A stretch of DNA of 64,000 bases, taken from positions 62,001-126,000 of the forward strand of contig NZ_SJPQ01000001.1 of NCBI RefSeq assembly GCF_007859945.1, given 5' to 3'. Positions 52,806 through 64,000 of the stretch are shown piece by piece; the first letter of the stretch is position 1, and every line of letters starts with the position of its first letter. This DNA comes from Pseudobythopirellula maris (GTDB lineage Bacteria > Planctomycetota > Planctomycetia > Pirellulales > Lacipirellulaceae). Under the pieces are notes generated by a model that was given only the letters and a program-made list of their open reading frames with translations, did not search any database and was not told where the DNA came from. The position numbers and the translations under genes are program-made.

Positions 52806-54566
52806 ATGGAAACGCTCGACTGGATCGTCATCGGCGGCTACTTCGGCCTGCTGGCCCTCGTTGCGGCCTGGGTCATCAGGAAGAAGAACGACACCTCCGA
52901 AGACTACTTCCTTGCCGGGCACAGCCTGGGGTGGTTCATCGTTGGAGCCTCGATTTTTGCGTCGAACATCGGTTCGGAGCACTTGGTCGGGCTGGCCGGC
53001 AGCGGCGCCACCGACGGCGTGGCCTTGGCCCATTACGAGCTGCACGCCTGGTGCCTGCTGGTATTGGGATGGTTGCTGGTGCCGTTCTACGTGCGCAGCG
53101 GCGTGTTCACGATGCCGCAGTTCCTGGAGCGTCGCTTTTCGCCCGCAGCCCGCTACACGCTGAGCATCATCTCGCTCGTCGCTTATGTCGTGACCAAGGT
53201 GGCGGTGGGCATCTACGCCGGCGGCGTGGTCTTCTCGGTCTTGCTGCCGGAGTTGGCGATTGGCCAGCTCGACAGTTTCTGGGTCGGCTCCTTGCTGGTG
53301 CTCGTCTTCACGGGTCTCTACACCGTCCTCGGCGGCTTCCGCGCGGTAGCTTACACCGAGGCGATCCAAACGGTTGTGCTGGTGGCCGGTTCGGCGATGG
53401 TGACCTACTTCGGCCTTCAGGCGATCGGCGGTTGGGGCGAGCTGCGCGAGGTGCTTGGCAGCGAGATGTTCAACCTCTGGAAGCCGATCGTGCCGGAAGG
53501 GCTCGCCGTGGAATGGGCCCCGGTCGAGGAGGTGAACGAGGCCGGCGAAGTGACCCGCCAAGCGTGGTACTTCAACGGCGCCTATCCGTGGCCCGGCATG
53601 CTGCTCTGTGCCCCGATCATCGGTCTGTGGTACTGGTGTACGGACCAGTACATCGTGCAGCGTGCGCTCGGCGCTGAGAACGAGACCGCCGCCCGCCGCG
53701 GCACGATCTTCGCGGCCTTCCTCAAGCTTCTGCCGGTGTTCATCTTCATCGTTCCCGGCATGATCTGCCTGGGACTCGCCAAGAGCGGCACGTTCGAGGG
53801 GCTCGACTCGATGGTCGACGCCAACGGCGAGGTTGTCAGCAGCGAGGCCCAGGCGGCCTTCCCGTTGATGGTCAAAGAGGTGCTGCCGGTGGGCATACGC
53901 GGCATCGTGGTCGCCGGCCTGTTGTCTGCCTTGATGAGCTCGCTGGCCGGTGTGTTCAACGCCAGTTCGACGCTGTTCACGATCGACCTCTACCAGAAGT
54001 TCTACCCCGAGGCGTCTGAGAAGCGGCTCGTGCGGGTCGGCCGCTACGCCACCGCGGTGATGGTGGTGATCGGCATGCTGTGGATCCCGATCATCAAAGG
54101 CTCTGATGGGCTCTACTACTACCTCCAGAGTGTGCAGGGCTATCTAGCCCCGCCGATCTTTGTGGCGTTCTTTGTCGGCATCTTTTGGAAGCGCGCCAAC
54201 GCTGCCGGTTGCCTGGCGGCGCTAATCGTCGGCTTCGCGATCGGTGTCCTCCGCTTGGCTGTCGACACGCGGCTGACGCTCGACCCTGATTTCGCTTACG
54301 CCGACGGCTCGTTCTTGTGGATCGTCAACAAGATCTACTTCCAGTACTTCAGCCTGATCATCACCGTGATCAGCGCCGCGACGATGGTGCTCGTGAGCTT
54401 GGCGACCAAGGCCCCCGACTACGAACGGATCTCGGGCATGACCTACGGCGTGGTCACGGCCGAAGACAAGGCCAAGTCGCGAGCCAGCTGGAGCGGCCTC
54501 GACATCGCCACCTCGGCGGTAGTCATGGCCCTGATCGTGGCGGCTTACGTGTACTTCAGCGGCTGA
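52806..54566 (+). CDS. Sodium/solute symporter (SSS family)
   Basis: The 586-residue membrane protein has about 14 spans and SSS motifs (YFLAGHSLGWFIVGASIFASNIGSEHLVGLAGSGA near residues 35-70; VLGGFRAVAYTEAIQTVVLVAG near 170-190; YWCTDQYIVQRALGA). SSS carriers import sugars, myo-inositol, sialic acid or other solutes with Na+. The SGLT-like GSGATDGVA pattern suggests a sugar. It follows the Ser/Thr kinase by about 150 bp and precedes a convergent LacI-type regulator, which suggests carbohydrate control, but the substrate is unknown. Confidence 0.92.
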   Translation: METLDWIVIGGYFGLLALVAAWVIRKKNDTSEDYFLAGHSLGWFIVGASIFASNIGSEHLVGLAGSGATDGVALAHYELHAWCLLVLGWLLVPFYVRSGVFTMPQFLERRFSPAARYTLSIISLVAYVVTKVAVGIYAGGVVFSVLLPELAIGQLDSFWVGSLLVLVFTGLYTVLGGFRAVAYTEAIQTVVLVAGSAMVTYFGLQAIGGWGELREVLGSEMFNLWKPIVPEGLAVEWAPVEEVNEAGEVTRQAWYFNGAYPWPGMLLCAPIIGLWYWCTDQYIVQRALGAENETAARRGTIFAAFLKLLPVFIFIVPGMICLGLAKSGTFEGLDSMVDANGEVVSSEAQAAFPLMVKEVLPVGIRGIVVAGLLSALMSSLAGVFNASSTLFTIDLYQKFYPEASEKRLVRVGRYATAVMVVIGMLWIPIIKGSDGLYYYLQSVQGYLAPPIFVAFFVGIFWKRANAAGCLAALIVGFAIGVLRLAVDTRLTLDPDFAYADGSFLWIVNKIYFQYFSLIITVISAATMVLVSLATKAPDYERISGMTYGVVTAEDKAKSRASWSGLDIATSAVVMALIVAAYVYFSG

Positions 54567-54593
54567 TCGTGCGACGGAGCACAAAAGCAGGCG

Positions 54594-54617
54594 GGCTCGC
54601 CCCTGATGGGGCGAGCC
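54594..54617. terminator. Hairpin between convergent symporter and LacI genes
   Basis: Arms ggctcgcccc (54594-54603) and ggggcgagcc (54608-54617) form a perfect 10-bp stem with a TGAT loop. It is placed between genes facing each other, so it can serve as a bidirectional terminator although only a weak T-rich stretch follows. Confidence 0.75.
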
Positions 54618-54708
54618 TTCGGTCAACGCCTCGATTGCACTGACATAATCGTGGCGTGTCTTTCGCCGACTCATGCTGACACGAAGGCTTCCCACCGTGC
54701 GATACGCA

Positions 54709-55773
54709 CTAGGCGCGATCTTTAGCGGGGCCGGTTGACTCCCTAACCACAAGGTCGGCGTCGATCTTCGATGTGCTGAAGTCGCTGACGGCTTCGCCCG
54801 TTTCGATGCGTGAGAGCACGAGACTCGCCGTCTCGACGCCGATCTCGTAAGGCCGTTGACGCACTGTCGTGAGCGGTGGGCTCATCTGCGCGGCGAAGTC
54901 GAGGTCTGCGAAGCCGATGACCGAAATGTCCTCGGGGATCTTCAGCCCCAGCTTGTGGGCCGCTTCGTAGACGAAAGCCGCCTCATGGTCGGTCACGGCG
55001 AACACGGCGGAAGGCTTGAGGCTGTCGGTGAGCAGCTCGTACGCCACCTCGGCGCCGTTGCTGCCGGTCTCGTTGAGCCGCCAGCTCTTCATCTCGACGT
55101 CGCCGCAGGCCGTGACCGCCTCTTCGAAGCTGGTGCGTCGTTCTAGCGCCCAGCTCTGCGCCAACGTCTCGCGGCTCGAGATGCATGCCACCCGGCGGTG
55201 GCCCAAATCGAGGATATGCTTGGCGATCGCTTTCGCCGCTTTGGCCTCGTTAGTCACCACGGTGTCGGCTACGGGATTCTCGGTGCGGTGGTCGATCACC
55301 ACCACGGGGACGCGGCGTTCACGGAGCTCCGGAAAGTGGTCGTGATACGCCAGACTGAAGGGGGGCCACATAATGATGCCGTCCACTCGACGGTCGAGCA
55401 GCCGCGTGATCGTGCGGAACCCCTCCTGATTGTCCGCCTCGAAGTGCGGCATGTGCTTCAAGTCGCCCGACCAAACGGTGATCGGCAGGTAGTCGGCCGA
55501 GCTGAGCCGGGTGTGGATGCCGGATAAAATACTGACCCAGAACGAGTCGTACGGCGGGATCAACACGCCAACGGTCTGTGTGCGTCCTGTCTGGATCCCG
55601 TTGACCAGCAGGTTGCGGCGCCAACCGAGCTCGCGCGCCGCCTCGAGAACGCGGTCGCAGGTGTCCTGAGCAAAGCGGTCTTGGTCGCCGCGCAAGATGC
55701 GCGACGCGGCGCCCACCGAGACCTTCGCCTTCTCGGCGACGTCCTTCAAACGAGGTACGGAAGAAGACGCCAT
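54709..55773 (-). CDS. LacI-family transcriptional regulator
   Basis: The 354-residue protein has the LacI HTH at the N terminus (PRLKDVAEKAKVSVGAASRILRGDQDRFAQDTCDRVLEAARELGW) followed by the periplasmic-binding-protein-like effector domain (TQTVGVLIPPYDSFWVSILSGI, CISSRETLAQSW, VSIGFADLDFAAQMSPPLTTV). It binds an operator until a sugar or related effector is present. The neighbouring symporter is the likely target, by position. It is transcribed leftward from a 308-bp upstream region. Confidence 0.93.
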   Translation of the reverse strand: MASSSVPRLKDVAEKAKVSVGAASRILRGDQDRFAQDTCDRVLEAARELGWRRNLLVNGIQTGRTQTVGVLIPPYDSFWVSILSGIHTRLSSADYLPITVWSGDLKHMPHFEADNQEGFRTITRLLDRRVDGIIMWPPFSLAYHDHFPELRERRVPVVVIDHRTENPVADTVVTNEAKAAKAIAKHILDLGHRRVACISSRETLAQSWALERRTSFEEAVTACGDVEMKSWRLNETGSNGAEVAYELLTDSLKPSAVFAVTDHEAAFVYEAAHKLGLKIPEDISVIGFADLDFAAQMSPPLTTVRQRPYEIGVETASLVLSRIETGEAVSDFSTSKIDADLVVRESTGPAKDRA

Positions 55774-56081
55774 GCGTTTGCCGGGGTGGGATGTCTTGCG
55801 GTGAGGTGCGCGGTTCGCGGTATCTGCGGGAGTTGGAGTCGCAATATGCTAACTCCGTCGGCAGGAAACAACTGTATCTTGACTCTCCCCTACATAGTCA
55901 CCAAGGTAAACTACTTGCACTCAGCAGGCGATGCTTTTCGCTTTTCCGTTGCGTGATTTTTTCAACGTTTGAGGATCAGCATCCTAAAAGTCGCGCGGCG
56001 AGGCCGCGGGGGCAGTTGGGCGTCACGCACCCCCCTCTTCAATCGCTCTGCCGCTTTGTGTTGTGCAGGAAGCGGGACCTT
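55774..56081. other. Gene-free 308 bp upstream of the LacI regulator
   Basis: It contains the probable promoter of the LacI gene and AT-rich stretches near 55910-55970 (gcttttccgttgcgtgattttttc). No reading frame with coding character and no known RNA motif were found. Copy 2 of the 155-bp foldback element begins at its right end. Confidence 0.4.
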
Positions 56082-56236
56082 AGAGCGGTTTGCTCATTGG
56101 TGTAGACGCTCGGCTCGCGATCGGCGTCATGGCTTCGTCAGCCTGCATCGACAATGCACCGCATTGCCTGCTTCGGCTTCCTCGCCACGCCACCAATCGC
56201 TTCCCCGCTCGTCCACACCAATTCGAAAACCGCTCT
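56082..56236 (+). mobile_element. MITE-like foldback element, copy 2
   Basis: This 155-bp element begins with agagcggtttgctcattgg and ends with the reverse complement motif ccaattcgaaaaccgctct. Both ends are bordered by TA. Almost the whole element can fold back on itself, with caatgc-acc-gcattg at the centre. The short reading frames inside (translated starting MLIGVDARLAIGV) are artefacts of the repeat. No transposase gene is nearby. Confidence 0.9.
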
Positions 56237-56511
56237 AATTCTCCCCGGCCCACCTGCCGACAAGGAGAAAACTCTTCCCTCTGAAAGTGAGTTTGGCGTC
56301 AAACAGAGTGCGCTTCGAAGCTGTAGATCAGCAACCGGCCATGCTCTACAAACGGGGGGACTCGCTCATGGCGATGCGACGGCAACGTTCGTCTTGTTTC
56401 CACTGGAAGTCACGGCGACAATCCACCCGCGACGTATGCTTTCGATAGGGCGGGATCGGACGCGATGGGCCCCATGCCGGTTTTCGTACCGAGAGGCGGG
56501 AGGAGCGAAGG
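56237..56511. other. Sequence between MITE copy 2 and the small membrane gene
   Basis: These 275 bp carry no gene I can support. A GGGAGGAG ribosome-binding site lies near its right end (56498-56505), serving the GTG start at 56512. It could contain the promoter for that gene. Confidence 0.35.
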
Positions 56512-56790
56512 GTGAATCACATCGCACTCTTAGCGAATCTCATCGTTGGCGCAGGCGCCACCGCCAGCGATTCTTGGTGGGGCGCCACGCTCTGGTCGAC
56601 GGCTGCCATCGCAGCATTTTTCGTGGGCATGGGGATCGGGGACCGCAGTCGGCTGCAATTTTGCCGCACTCTGCAGCGTGCGAATCGTCTGCTTGGGGAT
56701 CAGAACGCCGATCTCTGCGAAGAGAATCTTCGTCTTCTCAAGCGTATTGAAGGCTTCAAGAGAGCCGGTAGCGACATCGACCCCGAGTAA
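56512..56790 (+). CDS. Small membrane protein with C-terminal coiled-coil, flanked by MITEs
   Basis: GTG start at 56512 with GGGAGGAG 7 bases upstream gives 92 residues. One hydrophobic span at about residues 25-42 (WSTAAIAAFFVGMGIG) is followed by a charged, heptad-like helix (CRTLQRANRLLGDQNADLCEENLRLLKRIEG). That resembles small membrane-anchored coiled-coil proteins of unknown role. It lies alone between foldback elements at 56082-56236 and 56805-56959, so it may have been transposed with them or the elements may have inserted around it. Coding status is likely but not certain. Confidence 0.55.
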   Translation: MNHIALLANLIVGAGATASDSWWGATLWSTAAIAAFFVGMGIGDRSRLQFCRTLQRANRLLGDQNADLCEENLRLLKRIEGFKRAGSDIDPE

Positions 56791-56804
56791 TCCATTGAGC
56801 TTCT

Positions 56805-56959
56805 AGAGCGGTTTGCTCATAGGTGTAGACGCTCGGCTCGCGATCGGCGTCATGGCTTCGTCAGCCTGCATCGACAATGCACCGCATTGCCTGCTTCGGC
56901 TTCCTCGCCACGCCGCCAATCACTTCCCCCCTCGTCCACACCAATTCGAAAACCGCTCT
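56805..56959 (+). mobile_element. MITE-like foldback element, copy 3
   Basis: 155 bp, same orientation as copy 2 and differing from it at four positions. The ends are agagcggttt...aaaccgctct with TA at both borders (56804-56805 and 56959-56960). The interval between copies 2 and 3 is 568 bp and holds a small gene. Confidence 0.9.
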
Positions 56960-57066
56960 AGCCACGTTCCGATCGCCGCAACGGCGTTTGCCGGCTCCAG
57001 TCGAAGCGAACGCAGAGTGTGTGTGCGATTCAAAGTGGCTACCCGCGCACATCGAAGACAGTCGCG

Positions 57067-57831
57067 TCAGGCGACGAGGTGCATGTCCTTGTCGGCGTCT
57101 GCAGGGCTTTCTTGCTTCGCTGATCGCTTCTCGGCTTGAGCGGCGATCTCCTCGAAGTATTCACGGTCGTGCTTACTGAGTCCGCACGGCTCCAAGACTT
57201 CCGCGGGGATCGGGTGATCGAAGTACCAACGCCAGGTTTCGCCGTCGATCGCTGGGTTTTGCAGGTCGAGCTTCAAAGCGATTGCCGGGTTGCCCAGAAC
57301 GCAAGGATATTCCTGCAGGCCGCCAACCCGAGAGAATCCTAGCCGGCGCTCGTAGAGGGCGGCGTGGCGGGGGTGGCACGCGATCCAGATCTCGTCGACC
57401 CCTTCCTGCAGACCGAACTGCGCCATCACGCGGCTCATTTCGGAGAAGAGTTGAAAGAACCGCTTAGGCGACGAGCGCCGGTCCGCCAGGCACGTGACCT
57501 CGGCCAGCTTCACCCCAGCGGCCCTTCGCTCATCGATCTCGCGTGCGTAAACCGACTCGAGGGGAAGCCCGAGTTCGCCGTCGCAAACGAGTGTCTGTGT
57601 GTTGACGACCTGCCCGTCGAGTGTCGCCACGAACACCTGGGAGGTGTCGAGCAACTGGTGCGGGGTGATGCGCAGGTCGAACTCGTTCTCTAGGCAGAGA
57701 CCCGCGCGACTGTAGGAGTGCTGGACGAGACGAAACGCACCCTCGAGATGCTCCCGAGAGTGGGCCAGCTGAAGTTTCACTTCACTGGCGGACGTAAAGT
57801 CGATGTACCGCTGGTGGTTCACCTGGGTCAT
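57067..57831 (-). CDS. FeeM-like N-acyltransferase (N-acyl amino acid synthase type)
   Basis: With the ATG at 57831 (MTQVNHQRYIDFTSA) the protein has 254 residues. The pattern QLAHSREHLEGAFRLVQHSYSRAGLCLENEFDLRITPHQLL, followed by DEIWIACHPRHAALYERRLGFSRVGG, resembles the GNAT-fold long-chain N-acyl amino acid synthases (FeeM and the exosortase-associated acyltransferases). These join a fatty acyl group from acyl carrier protein to an amino acid such as tyrosine. The C-terminal tail (EKRSAKQESPADADKDMHLVA) is charged. Downstream of a TolC-type gene in a cluster with an ABC exporter, it may make the exported molecule. Confidence 0.75.
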   Translation of the reverse strand: MTQVNHQRYIDFTSASEVKLQLAHSREHLEGAFRLVQHSYSRAGLCLENEFDLRITPHQLLDTSQVFVATLDGQVVNTQTLVCDGELGLPLESVYAREIDERRAAGVKLAEVTCLADRRSSPKRFFQLFSEMSRVMAQFGLQEGVDEIWIACHPRHAALYERRLGFSRVGGLQEYPCVLGNPAIALKLDLQNPAIDGETWRWYFDHPIPAEVLEPCGLSKHDREYFEEIAAQAEKRSAKQESPADADKDMHLVA

Positions 57832-58101
57832 TACGGACTCGTGTTGAATTTGGGCGATCGCGCGGGGACTCCAGCCGCGGCCCGACAAATGCGGAGCCGA
57901 GGCGATCACCACGGGGGGATCACTCCGTGAATAAGGAAAAGGCGGGAAGATGAGGGGTAGCGTGAGGAGGGGGTGATCGCCGGTAGCGGCGTCACATCTA
58001 AAAAGTAGCTCACGATCCCCAGGGAGGCCCCGCCGCAACACCAGGGTGCGGGGACACGACACGGCGAAACGCCGGTCGTGTCGGTCGGTGGGGTTGTGCG
58101 A

Positions 58102-59436
58102 CTATTGCCGCCCGCACAATCGTCGACACTCGTCCCGCAGCAGCCCCGAGACAAACCTCAGCCGAAGCTGTGAGAGAGCCCGCTCGGTTTGAGCAATCAC
58201 GAAGCGCGCCTCGGCTTCGGCCATCTCCGCATGAGCGGCCGTGGCTTCCGAGGCGAGAGTGACCCCCTGCTCCTGGCGTCGGAGCGCCTGGTCGTGCCGC
58301 ACCCCCGTGTAGTCGAGCGACTCGCGTGCGGCGTTTTCCTCGGCGAGCGCCTCGCTGCGCAGGTTCCACGCCTGGTGCACCTCGATAGCGATCTGCTCCA
58401 GCAGATAGCGATACTGGGCCCGCAACGCAGCCGCACGGGCGGTCGAAGCCAGGGCGCTCTGGTGCTTCTTACCGCCGTCGAGTGCCTGCCAATCGAGGTA
58501 AAGCCCCGCCAGGGCGACCCCCTCGGGCGATTGGTAGCGGTTCTCTTCGTAATCGAAGCCGACCTCGACACGGAGTTCGGGATACCTGGCGGCGAGCCAC
58601 GCCGACGACTCGTGCAGGCTGGCGTCGACCCGTTGATGCAATTCGTTCACGTCGGGCCGCGTCTGCTTGGCGGTCTTGGTCAGATAGTCTAAGCAGTGCG
58701 GCATCAGCGGGATCGCGAGCTCGGAAAGCTCGACGTGACAGTCGAGCCTGCGGCCGAGCACGAGGTTGTAGTTGGCGGCCGCCTGATTGTGAGCGCTCTG
58801 GGCCTTGAGCAAATCGCGTTCGGCGTGGGCCACAGAAACCCTCGCGGCCTGAGCTTGCTGTTGCGTGGCTTGCTGCTGCTGTGCTTGCTGCGTGGTCTCG
58901 TGGGCGCGTACCCTCGCCACTTCAAGCAGCCGATCGGCAGCGCGGAGCGTTTGGGTCGTCTGGAGCACCGCGACATAAGCCTCAGCGACCGCCATCAATA
59001 GTTGCGATTCGGTCCATTCGGAAGACTCCACGCTCGCGAACGATCGCAGTTCCGCCGCGCGTACGGTGCTGTTGATACGCCCCGCGTTCCACAGCGGCTT
59101 GGAGGCGTGGGCCGAAAAACCCGCCGCGTTCTGCTGGGCGAAGGGCTGTCGGAACGTACCGAACCCTGGAAAAGTCGAGACGAAGCTTGGAGTGTCCGAG
59201 CGAGCGGTGTAGCCCTGGCGGGTGCTGAGCGTGGTAGCTCGTTCGGCCGCCGCCGCCAACGCCTCGTGACGAGCCGCTTCAGCAGAATAGTGCGAAGCCT
59301 CGAGGCTCTGGTTTTTGGCGATCGCCTCGCTCCAAGCGCTGACAAGCGACTCCGCGCCAAGGCATTCCAGCCCAACGCCCCAACATAGAGCGATGGCCAA
59401 CAGGGCGGATAGCGGTGCTAGCGGGCGGGCGGGCAT
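58102..59436 (-). CDS. Outer-membrane efflux protein (TolC family)
   Basis: From MPARPLAPLSALL (59436) the protein has 444 residues with a signal peptide ending near GLECLGA. The body contains two long helical halves of the TolC type: LVSAWSEAIAKNQSLEASHYSAEAARHEALAAAAERA, then later PDVNELHQRVDASLHESSAWLAARYPELRVEVGF. A Q/A-rich coiled coil lies near 195-215 (QQAQQQQATQQQAQAA). TolC-type proteins form the outer-membrane channel for tripartite export. The inner-membrane ABC transporter and fusion protein encoded divergently upstream would complete such a pump. Confidence 0.9.
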   Translation of the reverse strand: MPARPLAPLSALLAIALCWGVGLECLGAESLVSAWSEAIAKNQSLEASHYSAEAARHEALAAAAERATTLSTRQGYTARSDTPSFVSTFPGFGTFRQPFAQQNAAGFSAHASKPLWNAGRINSTVRAAELRSFASVESSEWTESQLLMAVAEAYVAVLQTTQTLRAADRLLEVARVRAHETTQQAQQQQATQQQAQAARVSVAHAERDLLKAQSAHNQAAANYNLVLGRRLDCHVELSELAIPLMPHCLDYLTKTAKQTRPDVNELHQRVDASLHESSAWLAARYPELRVEVGFDYEENRYQSPEGVALAGLYLDWQALDGGKKHQSALASTARAAALRAQYRYLLEQIAIEVHQAWNLRSEALAEENAARESLDYTGVRHDQALRRQEQGVTLASEATAAHAEMAEAEARFVIAQTERALSQLRLRFVSGLLRDECRRLCGRQ

Positions 59437-59648
59437 CGTTGGGCGGCAGGGACCTCGATAAGCTCTTGAGTGGCGGCGTTTGCTACCTACTTCATCGGCC
59501 ACACTCCGCAGCGCCCCCGCTTTAGGTCGTGCGGATGACAAGAAACTCTTCCGAAGTGTCACGGTCCTTCTACCGCCAGCCGCCTCTTCTACCCCGTCGC
59601 GAGTGCTACGGGTGCATTTGCAGCGACGGTCACCTAAGTGCCGCTCGA

Positions 59649-60227
59649 CTAGGCGGCGTCACGCCGCCAGGCTTTTTCTTCGCGGGCTGCTAGCAACCCG
59701 ATGTCGCCTGTCGATGCCATTGAAGCGAGGCTCGGCATGGGGATCGTGGCCGGAATAACTTCCTCTTCCGTGTCCGCCTCAGCCCTAATTCTCAGTTTCC
59801 GATCGGAGCGAATTCGCCAGGCACGCATAGCCTCGGAGAGCGACCATGCTATCGGCCACAACCCCCAAGCTACCATCCATGGGATCGCCATCACGCCGTA
59901 AACCGTGGCTAGCAGCATGCCGATCGACCACCGCGTGGATAGGCTCCAGCAGATGCGCCTGCCCGATTCTTGTAGTGCGGCCTCCAGTTGGCTATTCGCC
60001 ACCCCTTCCAATCGGCCTAAAAACCACCAAGGCGCCAGCGGGTTTTCCGCGTGCTCGAGCACGGCTCGCAAGTGAATCGCGTGTCCTTGTTTAGTGAGCG
60101 CCACCAAATGCCAGGGCCACACGCTGTGGGTGGTGCTGAGCGCCACCAGGCGGTTCACTCTCCCCCGCAAGGCCAGGTAGGCCACAAGGAAGTAGCAGTT
60201 TCCCCATTGCAGGCGAGGCAAATGCAT
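59649..60227 (-). CDS. Membrane protein of unknown function
   Basis: The 192-residue frame has hydrophobic segments at about residues 10-25, 98-125 and 119-135 (STRWSIGMLLATVYGVMAIPWMVAWGLWPIAWSL) and a charged C-terminal third (IRSDRKLRIRAEADTEEEV). It does not resemble a family I know. It precedes the TolC-type gene on the same strand by 212 bp, so it may share a promoter with the N-acyltransferase group. No clear ribosome-binding site lies before the ATG at 60227. Confidence 0.55.
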   Translation of the reverse strand: MHLPRLQWGNCYFLVAYLALRGRVNRLVALSTTHSVWPWHLVALTKQGHAIHLRAVLEHAENPLAPWWFLGRLEGVANSQLEAALQESGRRICWSLSTRWSIGMLLATVYGVMAIPWMVAWGLWPIAWSLSEAMRAWRIRSDRKLRIRAEADTEEEVIPATIPMPSLASMASTGDIGLLAAREEKAWRRDAA

Positions 60228-60583
60228 GGCGGTAAATGCAGCGAAACGAGACGACGGGACTGTTGATTAGCAGTGTTGGGAACCGCATCTCTCATCGTCC
60301 GCGCAGCAGTTCGGTCGCCATGAGGATCGTGTGATGTTGCGCAATATCGCAATCCGTAAAGCATTACTAGCACTCGCTTTACCGCTTTCGGGGGGGCGGT
60401 AGTTGCAAGCAGTTCAGGCTGCCGCATAGCCGTAGTAGGCGAAGCTTTGACTCGATGTCCTAGACTCCCTTAGTCGAAGTAAGGATTAGGCAAACCGTAA
60501 AAGGTTGGCCCAATGTGCCGGCCACCCGGAGCACGCTTTTGCCAAATTGGGCGCCTCGCGGCCCCAGAACCTGACAAAGAGAT
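60228..60583. promoter_or_regulatory. Divergent promoter region of the export cluster
   Basis: These 356 bp separate the leftward membrane-TolC-acyltransferase genes from the rightward ABC exporter genes. A short dyad ttgcg-caatat-cgcaa at 60337-60352 could be an operator. The AT-richer area around 60330-60400 is a plausible promoter zone, but no standard sigma-70 pair is convincing. Confidence 0.4.
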
Positions 60584-61705
60584 ATGGACGAAGTCGCGGT
60601 CAAAATGTTGTTCGCCGATCGCGGCAAGTTGTTCACCGCTTTGGTCGGTGTGGTCTTCGCTGTCGTGTTGGTAAACGTTCAAGGCGGCCTGTTCATCGGC
60701 CTCATCCGCAAAGCAAGTCTGCTGGTGGATCAGGGATCGGCGGATATCTGGGTCGGCCACCGGCGGATGAACAACGTCGACTTCCCGCACGATATCCCAC
60801 GGCAGTGGATCCACCGCGTGCGTTCGATCGAAGGGGTGGAGCGCGCCGAGCCCTACGTCGTGGGGCATTCCGTGATGACGCTTCCCAGCGGAGGATTCGA
60901 GCAGGTGCTGGTGGTCGGAAGCGACAGCGCGTCGCTGTTGGGGGGCGTCAGCCAACTGGCTGTTGGCGACCCCCAGAGCATCCGGGAGCCCGACGCGATC
61001 TTCCTCGACACGGGAGATCTGGACAAAGTCGAGAATCCACAGATCGGTGAGGTTCGCGAGATCGGGCGTCGCCGTGCGCGCATCGCCGGGTACACCGAGG
61101 GCATCCTGGGCTTTCTCGTTACCCCCTACGTGTTTACCACGCTCGACCGAGCCTCCGACTACCTCCGCAAGCCGACCGATCGCGTTTCCTATTTTCTCGT
61201 TGAGCTAAGCCCCGGCGCCGACACGGACCAGGTTCAAGGTCTTATCAGGCAGCGGCTCCCCGACGCCGAAACCATGACATGCAATGAGTACGCCTGGGTA
61301 TCGATCGATTACTGGCTGCGGCGCACCGGCATCGGACTGAGCTTTGGCGCTGCTACCGGCTTGGGGCTGATCGTGGGGCTGATCGTTGTCGGGCAGACGC
61401 TCTACGCCTCGGTGCTCGACCGCATGAATGAGTTCGCCACGCTCAAGGCGATCGGCGCAAACGAATCGCAGATCCGTGCGGTGGTCTTGTGTCAGGCGTT
61501 GCTGCTCGCGCTGGTCGGCTCTGCGATAGGCCTCGTGGTTACGGGCGTTCTGCAAACGCTCCTCGACAACCCGCGGGCGCCGATCTCGATCCCCTGGTTG
61601 GTGAGCGTAGGGAGCTGCGTCATGGTGACGGCCATCTGCCTCGTCGCATCGCTTGCGCCTTACCTCCGGTTGCGCAGGATCGATCCAGCGCTCGTTTTGC
61701 ATTAA
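60584..61705 (+). CDS. ABC transporter permease, DevC/MacB-type
   Basis: This 373-residue protein has one N-terminal span (LFTALVGVVFAVVLVNVQGGLF), a periplasmic domain of about 200 residues (SADIWVGHRRMNNVDFPHDIPRQW), and three C-terminal spans. The conserved VLDRMNEFATLKAIGANESQIRAVV element is the FtsX/MacB coupling loop. DevC-type permeases act with a DevA ATPase and DevB fusion protein to export glycolipids or peptides across both membranes. The ATPase and fusion-protein genes follow, 24 and 17 bp apart. Confidence 0.92.
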   Translation: MDEVAVKMLFADRGKLFTALVGVVFAVVLVNVQGGLFIGLIRKASLLVDQGSADIWVGHRRMNNVDFPHDIPRQWIHRVRSIEGVERAEPYVVGHSVMTLPSGGFEQVLVVGSDSASLLGGVSQLAVGDPQSIREPDAIFLDTGDLDKVENPQIGEVREIGRRRARIAGYTEGILGFLVTPYVFTTLDRASDYLRKPTDRVSYFLVELSPGADTDQVQGLIRQRLPDAETMTCNEYAWVSIDYWLRRTGIGLSFGAATGLGLIVGLIVVGQTLYASVLDRMNEFATLKAIGANESQIRAVVLCQALLLALVGSAIGLVVTGVLQTLLDNPRAPISIPWLVSVGSCVMVTAICLVASLAPYLRLRRIDPALVLH

Positions 61706-61729
61706 CCACCTTGGCACAAACGATCCGCG

Positions 61730-62497
61730 ATGACGCCTCTCACCCAGCACGACGCGAGCCTAAGCGACGCCAACGGCGTTGCGCCCGCCCTCGACTTGCG
61801 CGGCTTGTCGAAGTCTTACAGCCGTGGCGGCGCCGTCACCCAGGTGTTGCACGAGGTGTCGCTCGAGATCCAACGCGGCGAGTGCGTTTTCTTGCTGGGA
61901 CCGTCGGGCAGCGGCAAGAGCACCCTGCTGTCAATCATCGGCTGCTTGCTGAGCCCCGACGCCGGCGAGGTGCGGGTGCTTGGTCAGGACGTCACTCGAC
62001 TCGACCTCGAGCAACGAGCGATCCTGCGCCGCCGAATGATCGGGTTCGTCTTCCAAAGGTTTCACCTTATCCGCGGCCTTTCGGCCGTTGAGAACGTGGC
62101 GGTGCCGTTACGGCTCGATGGCGTCGACGCCTCGCGGGCAATCGAGCGGTCGCTCGAGTTGCTCGACCGCGTTGGGTTAGCCGACAAGGCGCGACAGCCC
62201 CCCAGCCGGCTTAGCGTGGGCCAGTGCCAGCGGGTGGCGATCGCCCGCGCCCTGGTGGCCGATCCCCATATCGTGCTCGCAGATGAGCCGACCGCGTCGC
62301 TCGACGCCGAGTCGGGTCAGCAGGCTATGGCGTTATTGCGGGAATTAACGGTTGAGACCGGCAGGACCCTGATCGTAGTTACCCACGACCAGCGGATCGT
62401 ACCGAAGGGCCCCACCAACGATCGTACGTTTGAGGTAGACAGCGGACGCCTCCGTTTAAAAACGCCCCAAGGAGCAGCAGGCGCCCAATCGCTCTAG
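61730..62497 (+). CDS. ABC transporter ATPase, LolD/MacB/DevA type
   Basis: In this 255-residue ATPase, Walker A is GPSGSGKST at residues 57-65, the ABC signature reads LSVGQCQRV near 165, and Walker B is IVLADEPTASLDAESG near 182-195. The sequence is the LolD/MacB/DevA branch, whose members power mechanotransmission-type exporters. It would energise the neighbouring DevC-like permease. The signature Cys in VGQCQR replaces the usual Gln/Gln pattern but is expected to be tolerated. Confidence 0.93.
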   Translation: MTPLTQHDASLSDANGVAPALDLRGLSKSYSRGGAVTQVLHEVSLEIQRGECVFLLGPSGSGKSTLLSIIGCLLSPDAGEVRVLGQDVTRLDLEQRAILRRRMIGFVFQRFHLIRGLSAVENVAVPLRLDGVDASRAIERSLELLDRVGLADKARQPPSRLSVGQCQRVAIARALVADPHIVLADEPTASLDAESGQQAMALLRELTVETGRTLIVVTHDQRIVPKGPTNDRTFEVDSGRLRLKTPQGAAGAQSL

Positions 62498-62514
62498 GGA
62501 TAGCAGCACACGAA

Positions 62515-63573
62515 ATGACGCGTTTCATATTCCTCACAACAGTCCTTGCCGCCATCGGTTCGACGGCTTGGTTTATCGACTTCCAGTCGGCGGCTGTAGA
62601 GCCCGCCCCGGCGTCGCACGCCCCTTCCGAGGAGATCTGCGCACCCGGAATAGTCGAAGGCGCCACCGAATCGATTGCTCTGAGGCCCGAGTTGAGTGGC
62701 GTGGTCGTCGAGCGGCTAGTGGCCGTCGGCGATTGGGTTCAATCGGGACAAACGCTTGTGAGGTTCGACGACCGCTCGGCGCGACTCGAACTGGCGGAAG
62801 CGCAAGCTCAGCTCGCACTCTCTCAGGCGAGGTTGGAGCGCATACTCAATGGCGCAAGAAACCACGAGCGCGACGAGGCTCGCGCGCTAGAAGGGGCGGC
62901 CGAGTCTAGGCTCTCGCAAGCGATCACAGCTCTCGGCCGTATCGAGCAGCTCGAACGCAAGAACGCTCTGCCCGCCCAAGAAGCCGACGACGCTCGCTCG
63001 AAGGTCGAGACGCTACGCGCCGAATTGGCCGCCTCACGAGCACGGCTCGCGCTGCTCGAGGCGCCGGCCCGTGAAGACGAAGTGCGACTGGCTCGCGCCC
63101 AAGTCTCCGCGGCCGAGGCCTCGGTGGGTCTCGCGCAGGTGATGCTCGAGAAGCGGCTGATCCGCGCCCCCTGCGACGCGCGTGTGCTCGACATCGACGC
63201 CGAGCTGGGCGAACTGATCGGCCCCGCCGACCAGAATCCGGTCGTCGTGCTAGCCGACACCCGCCAACTGCGGGTGCGGGCGTTCATCGAGGAGCTCGAC
63301 GCGCCGCACACCCCAATCGGCGCCGCCACAACGATCACCGCCGATGGCTTGCCGGGCGAAACATTCCACGGCGTGATCACCTCGATCAGCCCGCGTATGG
63401 CGGCGAAGGAGTTCTTCACCAATCGCCCCAACGAGATGTACGACGCCAAGACACGCGAGGCGATCGTCGAAGTGCAAGAAGGCTCCGGTCTGATTGTCGG
63501 CCTGCGGGTCGATCTGCGGATCGACAGCACTCAGGCGACAATGCTCTCAGCCGAGGGAAGGAGCCTGCGATGA
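62515..63573 (+). CDS. Membrane fusion protein (HlyD/DevB type)
   Basis: The 352-residue protein has an N-terminal span (FIFLTTVLAAIGSTAWFI), a lipoyl half-motif (ALRPELSGVVVERLVAVGDWVQSGQTLVRFDDRSA), a long coiled coil (about 85-215), and the second lipoyl and beta-barrel region (IRAPCDARVLDIDAELGELIGP). Such proteins bridge the inner-membrane ABC transporter and an outer-membrane TolC channel. Its stop overlaps the next start by 4 bp (ATGA), so the downstream nitroreductase-like gene is translated with it. Confidence 0.92.
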   Translation: MTRFIFLTTVLAAIGSTAWFIDFQSAAVEPAPASHAPSEEICAPGIVEGATESIALRPELSGVVVERLVAVGDWVQSGQTLVRFDDRSARLELAEAQAQLALSQARLERILNGARNHERDEARALEGAAESRLSQAITALGRIEQLERKNALPAQEADDARSKVETLRAELAASRARLALLEAPAREDEVRLARAQVSAAEASVGLAQVMLEKRLIRAPCDARVLDIDAELGELIGPADQNPVVVLADTRQLRVRAFIEELDAPHTPIGAATTITADGLPGETFHGVITSISPRMAAKEFFTNRPNEMYDAKTREAIVEVQEGSGLIVGLRVDLRIDSTQATMLSAEGRSLR

Positions 63574-64000
63574 CGGTCGCTTGCGAGCCGATCGGCTCGA
63601 CCGTGCTGCGCGACATCGTCGCCGCGGCCACGCGTGCTCCCTCGGCAGAAAACACGCAGCCATGGCGGTTGCAGTGGATCGGCGACAGACTCCGAGTGCT
63701 GCACGACCGTTCGCGCGCGATGTCCTCTGACATCGACTCGATGCTCGACCTTACCGGCATTGGAACGCTCATCGAGTCGCTCGTGATCGCGGCCTCAAGT
63801 CACGGCTTGCAGGCAGAAGTCGAGGCACTTGAGGGCTTGGCAAGCTATGGCCAGTTGCGGCCCGTGACTGACTTGCTGTTCGAAGCGTGCAGCGACACGC
63901 CCGACCCTTTAACCGACACCCTCGAGTCACGTTGCACTACGCGTCGTATGGACGCGAACCGACCGCTCACCCCCGAGCAGCAGCAAGCGTTGCTGGATGC
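63570..64000 (+). CDS. Nitroreductase-like protein (partial, runs off the window)
   Basis: The gene begins at ATG 63570 and continues past the right edge. The start (ACEPIGSTVLRDIVAAATRAPSAENTQPWRLQW) matches the FMN-binding entry of nitroreductase-superfamily proteins, in particular Acg-like forms (APSAxNTQPWR). It overlaps the membrane fusion protein stop by 4 bp, so it is part of the same operon. In this setting it may modify the exported compound by flavin-dependent oxidation or reduction. Length, partner domains and substrate are outside the window. Confidence 0.7.
   Translation, partial: MTVACEPIGSTVLRDIVAAATRAPSAENTQPWRLQWIGDRLRVLHDRSRAMSSDIDSMLDLTGIGTLIESLVIAASSHGLQAEVEALEGLASYGQLRPVTDLLFEACSDTPDPLTDTLESRCTTRRMDANRPLTPEQQQALLD

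Follow-up and report, generated by a model that had tools for sequence, protein, structure and literature searches.

A likely biosynthesis-and-export cluster for N-acyl amino acids in Pseudobythopirellula maris, with a DevC permease subfamily that tracks the N-acyltransferase

We analysed a gene cluster near the end of a 64,000-nucleotide stretch of the planctomycete Pseudobythopirellula maris (the window; positions 62001-126000 of contig NZ_SJPQ01000001.1, in a 5.07-Mb genome). The cluster joins a FeeM-type N-acyltransferase, called NAS here for N-acyl amino acid synthase, to a complete tripartite exporter, and one subfamily of the exporter's permease, DevC, was found to travel with NAS through related genomes. 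Coordinates are window positions (Table 1); those above 64000 extend the window and were read in L002, a fetched stretch covering the region past its end. The seven open reading frames (ORFs) of an original prediction, made from the letters of the DNA, were all present at the places it gave. Its two divergent gene sets are indeed separated by exactly 356 bp, the nitroreductase gene overlaps the adaptor gene by 4 bp as claimed (ATG at 63570, adaptor gene end at 63573), and Pfam returned the families FeeM, OEP/TolC, FtsX/MacB_PCD, ABC_tran, HlyD and Nitroreductase. Reading on past position 64000 completed the nitroreductase at 371 aa and revealed a third enzyme, absent from the prediction, whose ThiF-family gene again overlaps the preceding gene by 4 bp. 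The nitroreductase gene belongs to the operon, as had been proposed, but does not end it.

Table 1. Features of the cluster in window coordinates
Feature	Position	Strand	Basis or remark
FeeM-type N-acyltransferase (NAS)	57067..58062	-	Pfam FeeM PF21926, E 5e-41
TolC-family outer-membrane channel	58102..59562	-	Pfam OEP, E 5e-34
Small membrane protein, single hydrophobic segment at about residues 101-123	59649..60227	-	Hydropathy
Divergent intergenic region, 356 bp	60228..60583	.	Gap between ORFs
DevC-like ABC (ATP-binding cassette) permease, NAS-linked subfamily	60584..61705	+	Pfam FtsX and MacB_PCD
DevA-like ABC ATPase	61730..62497	+	Pfam ABC_tran, E 4e-34
DevB/HlyD-like periplasmic adaptor	62515..63573	+	Pfam HlyD_3, HlyD_D23
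Acg-like flavin mononucleotide (FMN) nitroreductase/desaturase, 5' part	63570..64000, continuing to 64685 (371 aa)	+	Pfam Nitroreductase
ThiF-family cyclase gene, 306 aa	64682-65602 (outside window; L002:8183-9103)	+	Pfam ThiF, E 5e-41; in operon with nitroreductase

We consider it likely that the cluster couples biosynthesis with a dedicated exporter for N-acyl amino acids, probably aromatic ones, and their dehydro or oxazolone derivatives, beside an exosortase locus. All parts of the exporter are present, as predicted: an FtsX/MacB_PCD permease, an ABC ATPase, an HlyD adaptor and an OEP channel, together the architecture of a tripartite ABC exporter of the MacB/DevC type. Assignment to the DevBCA family itself was rejected, since all three subunits scored below the curated cut-offs of the NCBIfam Dev models (TIGR01185, TIGR02982 and TIGR02971): the permease reached 105.7 bits on devC (TIGR01185; cut-off 290.35), the ATPase 215.5 bits on its best model, heterocyst_DevA (cut-off 295.8), and the adaptor 87.1 bits on the DevB model (cut-off 129). 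The proper name is therefore DevCAB-like. A TolC homologue also adjoins NAS in four other loci (L113, L127, L137 and L154).

The true start of NAS is probably ATG 57831 (254 aa) and not GTG 58062, and that of TolC probably ATG 59436, to judge from homologue length and a signal-peptide-like stretch. NAS found a single sequence match in the PDB, FeeM (2g0b), and searched against the genome that encodes it, it matched nothing but itself at E<=0.001. Its AlphaFold model, from ATG 57831, was of good quality by the predicted local distance difference test (pLDDT 88.1) and the predicted template modelling score (pTM 0.84). FeeM was also the best structural match (Z 22.3 over 184 residues at 2.3 A), followed by the acyl-homoserine-lactone synthase LasI (Z 17.0); sequence and predicted fold thus agree with the FeeM-like acyltransferase of the prediction.

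The nitroreductase, already above the Pfam Nitroreductase cut-off of 23.5 bits in its truncated form (31 bits), scored 40.7 bits at full length. Its best NCBIfam models were PRK14851 (E 1e-56) and the Rv1355c family (E 2e-56), both below their full-length fusion cut-offs. On the Acg family model NF047509 it reached 144.4 bits (cut-off 199), and the top PDB match of its alignment profile was Acg (2ymv, E 5e-20). The ThiF protein matched NCBIfam PRK08223 at 394.5 bits (cut-off 266). The top matches of its profile were tRNA threonylcarbamoyladenosine dehydratase and ThiF, and across 22 chosen homologues the nucleotide-binding glycines of GxGGVGG, Asp136 and Asp140 do not vary. All three enzymes meet in one NCBIfam family, PRK14852 (989 aa), in which the NAS match lies near the N terminus and the nitroreductase match at the C terminus, with ThiF between them; this fusion bears out the placing of the nitroreductase in the cluster. 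Two nitroreductase subtypes occupy the same slot of otherwise similar clusters. The one in the window is 33-47% identical to the members of its own set (L002, L067, L114, L116-L118, L121, L122 and L090) and 22-26% identical to those of the other (L066, L035, L113, L119, L120, L097, L101 and L124); the two may act on different substrates.

We then compared the distribution of the permease with that of NAS across 396 genomes of the order, using a DevC profile of 20 rows (A1) and a NAS profile of 26 rows (A3) and scoring no more than the 5-8 top candidates of each genome. ThiF-linked loci, 10 of them from order genomes, supplied the DevC profile, whose fit there is therefore partly circular. This profile gave 37 matches of at least 487 bits in 36 genomes, followed by matches of 446, 436 and 429 bits and a remainder at or below 364 bits. 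We took the 37 as a subfamily, whose border (>=487 bits) was set after the gap from 487 to 446 bits had been seen. NAS was detected in 47 of the 396 genomes, including all 36 with the DevC subfamily; 11 genomes had NAS only and 349 had neither (Fisher p ~1e-41, ignoring ancestry, as do all our two-way tables). The strongest part of this linkage comes from the 21 subfamily genomes that have no ThiF match and supplied no row to either profile, since all 21 carry NAS. At these ThiF-less loci, NAS lay inside the fetched stretch in 17 cases and directly upstream on the same strand in 11. Of the full set of 37 subfamily DevC genes, 15 had a NAS within 2 kb and 28 had one within 10 kb. Among 30 comparison genomes, hand-picked from 93 with only lower-scoring DevC matches, one had NAS, and none was found in the seven lower-scoring DevC loci that were read (6.8-20 kb).

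A scan for OxzB-like ThiF (E<=1e-40) was positive for 12 of 392 genomes of the phylum and 16 of 396 of the order, the window's own genome being counted in both scans; the ThiF, DevC and NAS scans are assumed to cover the same order genomes, as they agree in size and handles. All 16 ThiF-positive order genomes carry NAS. DevC lay within 20 kb of ThiF in ten of them; two more had it 41 and 69 kb away on the ThiF contig, and three had it on another contig (two of whose ThiF contigs are shorter than 6.2 kb); one, G695, had none. DevC was also present in the fetched stretch of 7 of the 11 other ThiF-positive genomes of the phylum. This neighbourhood survey left out duplicates (L033, L034, L036 and L038, from genomes G632, G447, G695 and G145) and short loci. 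ThiF was considered as the exporter's partner and rejected, because the 21 genomes without a ThiF match still pair the same DevC subfamily with NAS. Moreover, ThiF and the DevC subfamily were not clearly associated among the 47 NAS-positive genomes (p 0.07). The pump therefore follows NAS, and the ThiF/desaturase module, present in 16 genomes, is optional. Since the DevC subfamily travels with NAS through related genomes, the pump probably exports the NAS product. Parts of the phylum conserve the neighbourhood that had drawn attention to the locus, in which one acylating and one redox enzyme stand beside a complete exporter.

A maximum-likelihood tree built from 55 DevC sequences placed the order's 37 subfamily members on one side of a branch (96/93). 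Nearest to them were NAS/ThiF-linked DevC proteins of other planctomycete families, together with two unlinked DevC proteins of intermediate score. Two genomes of family f31 pair a different DevC lineage with ThiF and a weakly matching NAS (66-92 bits). A similar association was found in another phylum, on plasmid pDVUL01 of Nitratidesulfovibrio vulgaris DP4 (NC_008741.1), the one read of three N. vulgaris plasmids matched. It encodes a 989-aa protein with NAS, ThiF and nitroreductase domains, accompanied by three PEP-CTERM genes and XrtA-system genes, and a DevC-DevA-DevB operon follows about 7.7 kb downstream. The plasmid's DevC scored 405 bits on the DevC profile and grouped with six NAS- and ThiF-linked planctomycete DevC proteins (99/96). 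The stretch read (L162, NC_008741.1 152387-177268) also holds a sigma-54 regulator gene and, a few kb further on, nif genes; nothing relevant on PEP-CTERM and the Desulfovibrio vulgaris megaplasmid was found in the open-licence literature. On a Bdellovibrio plasmid (L163, AP029178.1 1-13474, reversed), an OxzB-like ThiF gene stands beside genes for an ABC ATPase and for a different kind of permease, which matched the DevC profile weakly (24 bits); no NAS profile match was found among the 8 proteins tested there.

Downstream of ThiF come a PEP-CTERM-like gene, a small gene on the opposite strand, a NusG/UpxY-like antiterminator gene, an exosortase gene and a gene for a Wzc-like protein, the PEP-CTERM-like, exosortase and Wzc-like genes lying 0.2-7 kb from ThiF. 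The exosortase (L002:12430-13371) matched Exosortase_EpsH at E 2e-60. The product of L002:9318-10256 matched no family model; we take its C terminus to be PEP-CTERM-like from a motif recognised by eye. Exosortases were found in all 36 genomes with the DevC subfamily and in 27 of the 30 comparison genomes, and therefore do not discriminate between them; for this reason we rejected, as our principal interpretation, that the exporter belongs to the exosortase system. The PEP-CTERM protein family, compiled from ten stretches, had a genome match in 23 of 47 NAS-positive and 0 of 20 NAS-negative genomes; 10 of the 16 ThiF-positive order genomes matched, 9 of which had supplied profile rows. Craig et al. 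are said to have linked N-acyl amino acid synthases to exosortase loci in 2011, and the recurrence of the PEP-CTERM family in NAS-positive genomes agrees with that older link.

From these parts a four-step route can be proposed. The FeeM-type NAS would join a fatty-acyl thioester to an amino acid; the ThiF protein would adenylate the carboxylate and close an oxazolone ring; the Acg-like flavoenzyme would desaturate the alpha,beta bond, so that an N-acyl dehydro-amino acid or an acyl-oxazolone results, as in stieleriacine and tyrazolone chemistry; and the DevC-DevA-DevB pump, with TolC of the divergent operon, would carry this product, or the free acid formed by its hydrolysis, across the envelope. 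The first three steps, whose reactions, amino acid and chain length we infer, are drawn from studied relatives, among them the ThiF cyclisation and flavin desaturation described in the parts seen of the papers on TyzABC (PMC10404671) and TrzAS (PMC12856293). The export step, its cargo and its direction are read from genomic evidence. An N-acyl amino acid derivative is the likeliest form of the exported N-acyl molecule that the original prediction had envisaged; its further claim, that such a system lacked a described relative, did not stand, as set out below.

Several observations weigh against a dedicated NAS-product exporter. For the 37 subfamily DevC genes, the nearest NAS was 42-73 kb away in four cases and shared no contig in five, and one of the 28 near cases (G631) is a partial NAS match of 76 bits. 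No DevA or DevB was found beside DevC in locus L139. Eleven of the 47 NAS-positive order genomes lack the DevC subfamily among their best 5-8 candidates, and the co-occurrence counts are uncorrected for shared ancestry. Four of the 11 ThiF-positive planctomycetes outside the order had no DevC match genome-wide at E<=1e-20, and DevC was nearby in none of 28 named ThiF-scan loci outside Planctomycetota, several of which are short contigs, so that the exporter is not obligatory. In Stieleria neptunia, the NAS inside the predicted cluster was not the main stieleriacine synthase, so that proximity can mislead (PMC12479983). According to the portions consulted of two further papers, cell pellets were the main or only fraction in which tryptazolones and the Mycobacterium tuberculosis tyrazolone were detected (PMC12856293, PMC10404671).

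Other functions for the pump have to be weighed against export of the NAS product. It might serve another cargo of the exosortase and exopolysaccharide locus, such as a glycolipid, a lipoprotein or a polymer part, with the acyl-amino-acid genes as mere neighbours. The PEP-CTERM-like, exosortase and Wzc-like genes close to ThiF would fit this, as would locus L128, where DevCAB lies near an exosortase with NAS 42 kb away; the cargo ascribed to heterocyst DevBCA is the heterocyst glycolipid. We regard such a cargo as unlikely, however, given that exosortases are nearly as common without the DevC subfamily as with it, whereas NAS falls from 36/36 to 1/30 between the same two groups. That the pump protects its host by efflux of a toxic, surface-active product or intermediate, and does not deliver it, seems to us distinctly unlikely. 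N-acyl amino acids are described as surfactants, some moderately antimicrobial (PMC12479983 and the part seen of PMC7293339), and NCBIfam also shows a likeness of the adaptor and ATPase to multidrug-pump components. That PEP-CTERM genes recur in NAS-positive genomes speaks mildly for delivery, and nothing else separates efflux from delivery.

Two further possibilities concern the molecule itself. The oxazolone might be exported as such and act outside as an activated acyl donor, opening on hydroxyl or amine groups of an exopolysaccharide or PEP-CTERM protein. Oxazolones react with water and alcohols, as stated in the text available of PMC12856293, and could therefore acylate matrix components. 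In that case the exosortase matrix would have its surface-lipidation system in this cluster, and the stieleriacines, so far isolated as free acids, would be products of hydrolysis. The PEP-CTERM family has no conserved Lys or Cys acceptor in 10 aligned sequences, and nothing relevant on oxazolones acylating exopolysaccharide was found in the open-licence literature; we hold the idea to be very improbable. It is more improbable still that the cluster yields a plain saturated N-acyl amino acid, as a signal or a lipid, with the ThiF-nitroreductase pair acting on some other substrate. NAS must have a use of its own, as 31 of the 47 NAS-positive order genomes gave no OxzB-like ThiF, and its fold resembles acyl-homoserine-lactone synthases next after FeeM. 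Against this stand the presence of NAS in every ThiF-positive order genome, the fusion of ThiF and nitroreductase to NAS in N. vulgaris, and the biochemical tie of both enzymes to N-acyl amino acids elsewhere, as far as the consulted parts of two papers go (PMC12856293, PMC10404671).

The small membrane protein matched no Pfam or NCBIfam model and had one homologue among the fetched stretches, in genome G015 (52% over 128 aa). In both proteins a G-N-C motif, and after it H-L-V-A-L-T and G-H-A-I-H, precede the hydrophobic segment, and these motifs might mark a Cys-His enzyme domain; single-sequence structure prediction was poor (pLDDT 60.6). Between the divergent regions of the window and of G015, DNA comparison gave only one 10-bp chance match. 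A scan of 57000-60700, the divergent region included, detected no sigma-70-like promoter, and Rfam gave no match at gathering scores over 54000-64000. A 157-bp repeat with 97% identity between its copies (56081-56237 and 56804-56960, 723 bp apart), likewise without an Rfam match, lies between the genes for a LacI-type regulator and NAS. This regulator gene and a convergent sodium:solute-symporter-like gene (52806-55773, read by eye) precede the cluster and lie outside it.

The DevC subfamily, found only with NAS in the 396 genomes, offers a named transporter gene for work in a tractable planctomycete such as S. neptunia, at a point where the published work, as far as it was seen, leaves open the export route and role of N-acyl dehydrotyrosines and acyl-oxazolones. 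With its help orphan DevC exporters can be annotated by their cargo and further clusters of this kind recognised, including the fused version on the Nitratidesulfovibrio plasmid. The PEP-CTERM and exosortase company ties the molecules to the extracellular matrix.

The enzyme set itself is of a known kind, that published for N-acyl dehydrotyrosines (stieleriacines) and acyl-oxazolones. NAS, ThiF and nitroreductase are named for the producers of stieleriacine, thalassotalic acid and kyonggic acid (PMC12479983), and an N-acyltransferase, a ThiF cyclase and a flavin desaturase for the TyzABC and TrzAS oxazolones in the parts seen of PMC10404671 and PMC12856293. The enzymes are therefore not new, and the original claim that no described system has this combination has to be withdrawn in the light of these papers and of the portion consulted of PMC7293339. 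What appears new is the link of the NAS enzyme set to a DevC-DevA-DevB exporter, of which we found no description in the open-licence literature. The 2020 paper on the Stieleria maiorica cluster, in the part seen, raises export of the product by transporters of the cluster as a possibility, without clear indication (PMC7293339); the main text of the 2025 paper does not mention export, transporter, efflux or TolC (PMC12479983), and the word exporter does not occur in the text available of a review of planctomycete metabolites (PMC12078418).

Among known exporters, cyanobacterial heterocyst DevBCA-TolC has the same subunit architecture and gives the best NCBIfam match of the window's ATPase and permease. 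It differs in that the window's subunits fall below its family cut-offs and keep the company of acyl-amino-acid synthesis genes. The PRK14852 system on pDVUL01 differs from the cluster by its fused enzyme and in that the exporter forms an operon of its own behind a sigma-54 regulator gene. Tyz/Trz of mycobacteria and OxzAB of Pseudoalteromonas rubra share with the cluster an N-acyltransferase, a ThiF cyclase and a flavin-dependent desaturase; the parts seen of the papers on them (PMC10404671, PMC12856293) mention no DevCAB, and the former notes mmpL9 beside tyz. The stieleriacine set of S. maiorica and S. neptunia (MIBiG BGC0002080; PMC12479983 and the part consulted of PMC7293339) has NAS, ThiF and nitroreductase as here, with a PEP-CTERM gene and exopolysaccharide genes nearby. 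A genome of the order, G670 (one 9,894,293-base contig), which we infer from size and layout to be S. maiorica, has ThiF, nitroreductase and four NAS genes spaced like Mal15_37340, 37370, 37380 and 37430. Among its NAS genes lie two gene pairs, each of an adaptor-like gene and one that has the size of a resistance-nodulation-division (RND) pump gene, and about 4 kb past the fourth NAS a DevCAB set begins. The stieleriacine set has several NAS genes, whereas the cluster described here has one NAS in two compact divergent operons with the exporter inside.

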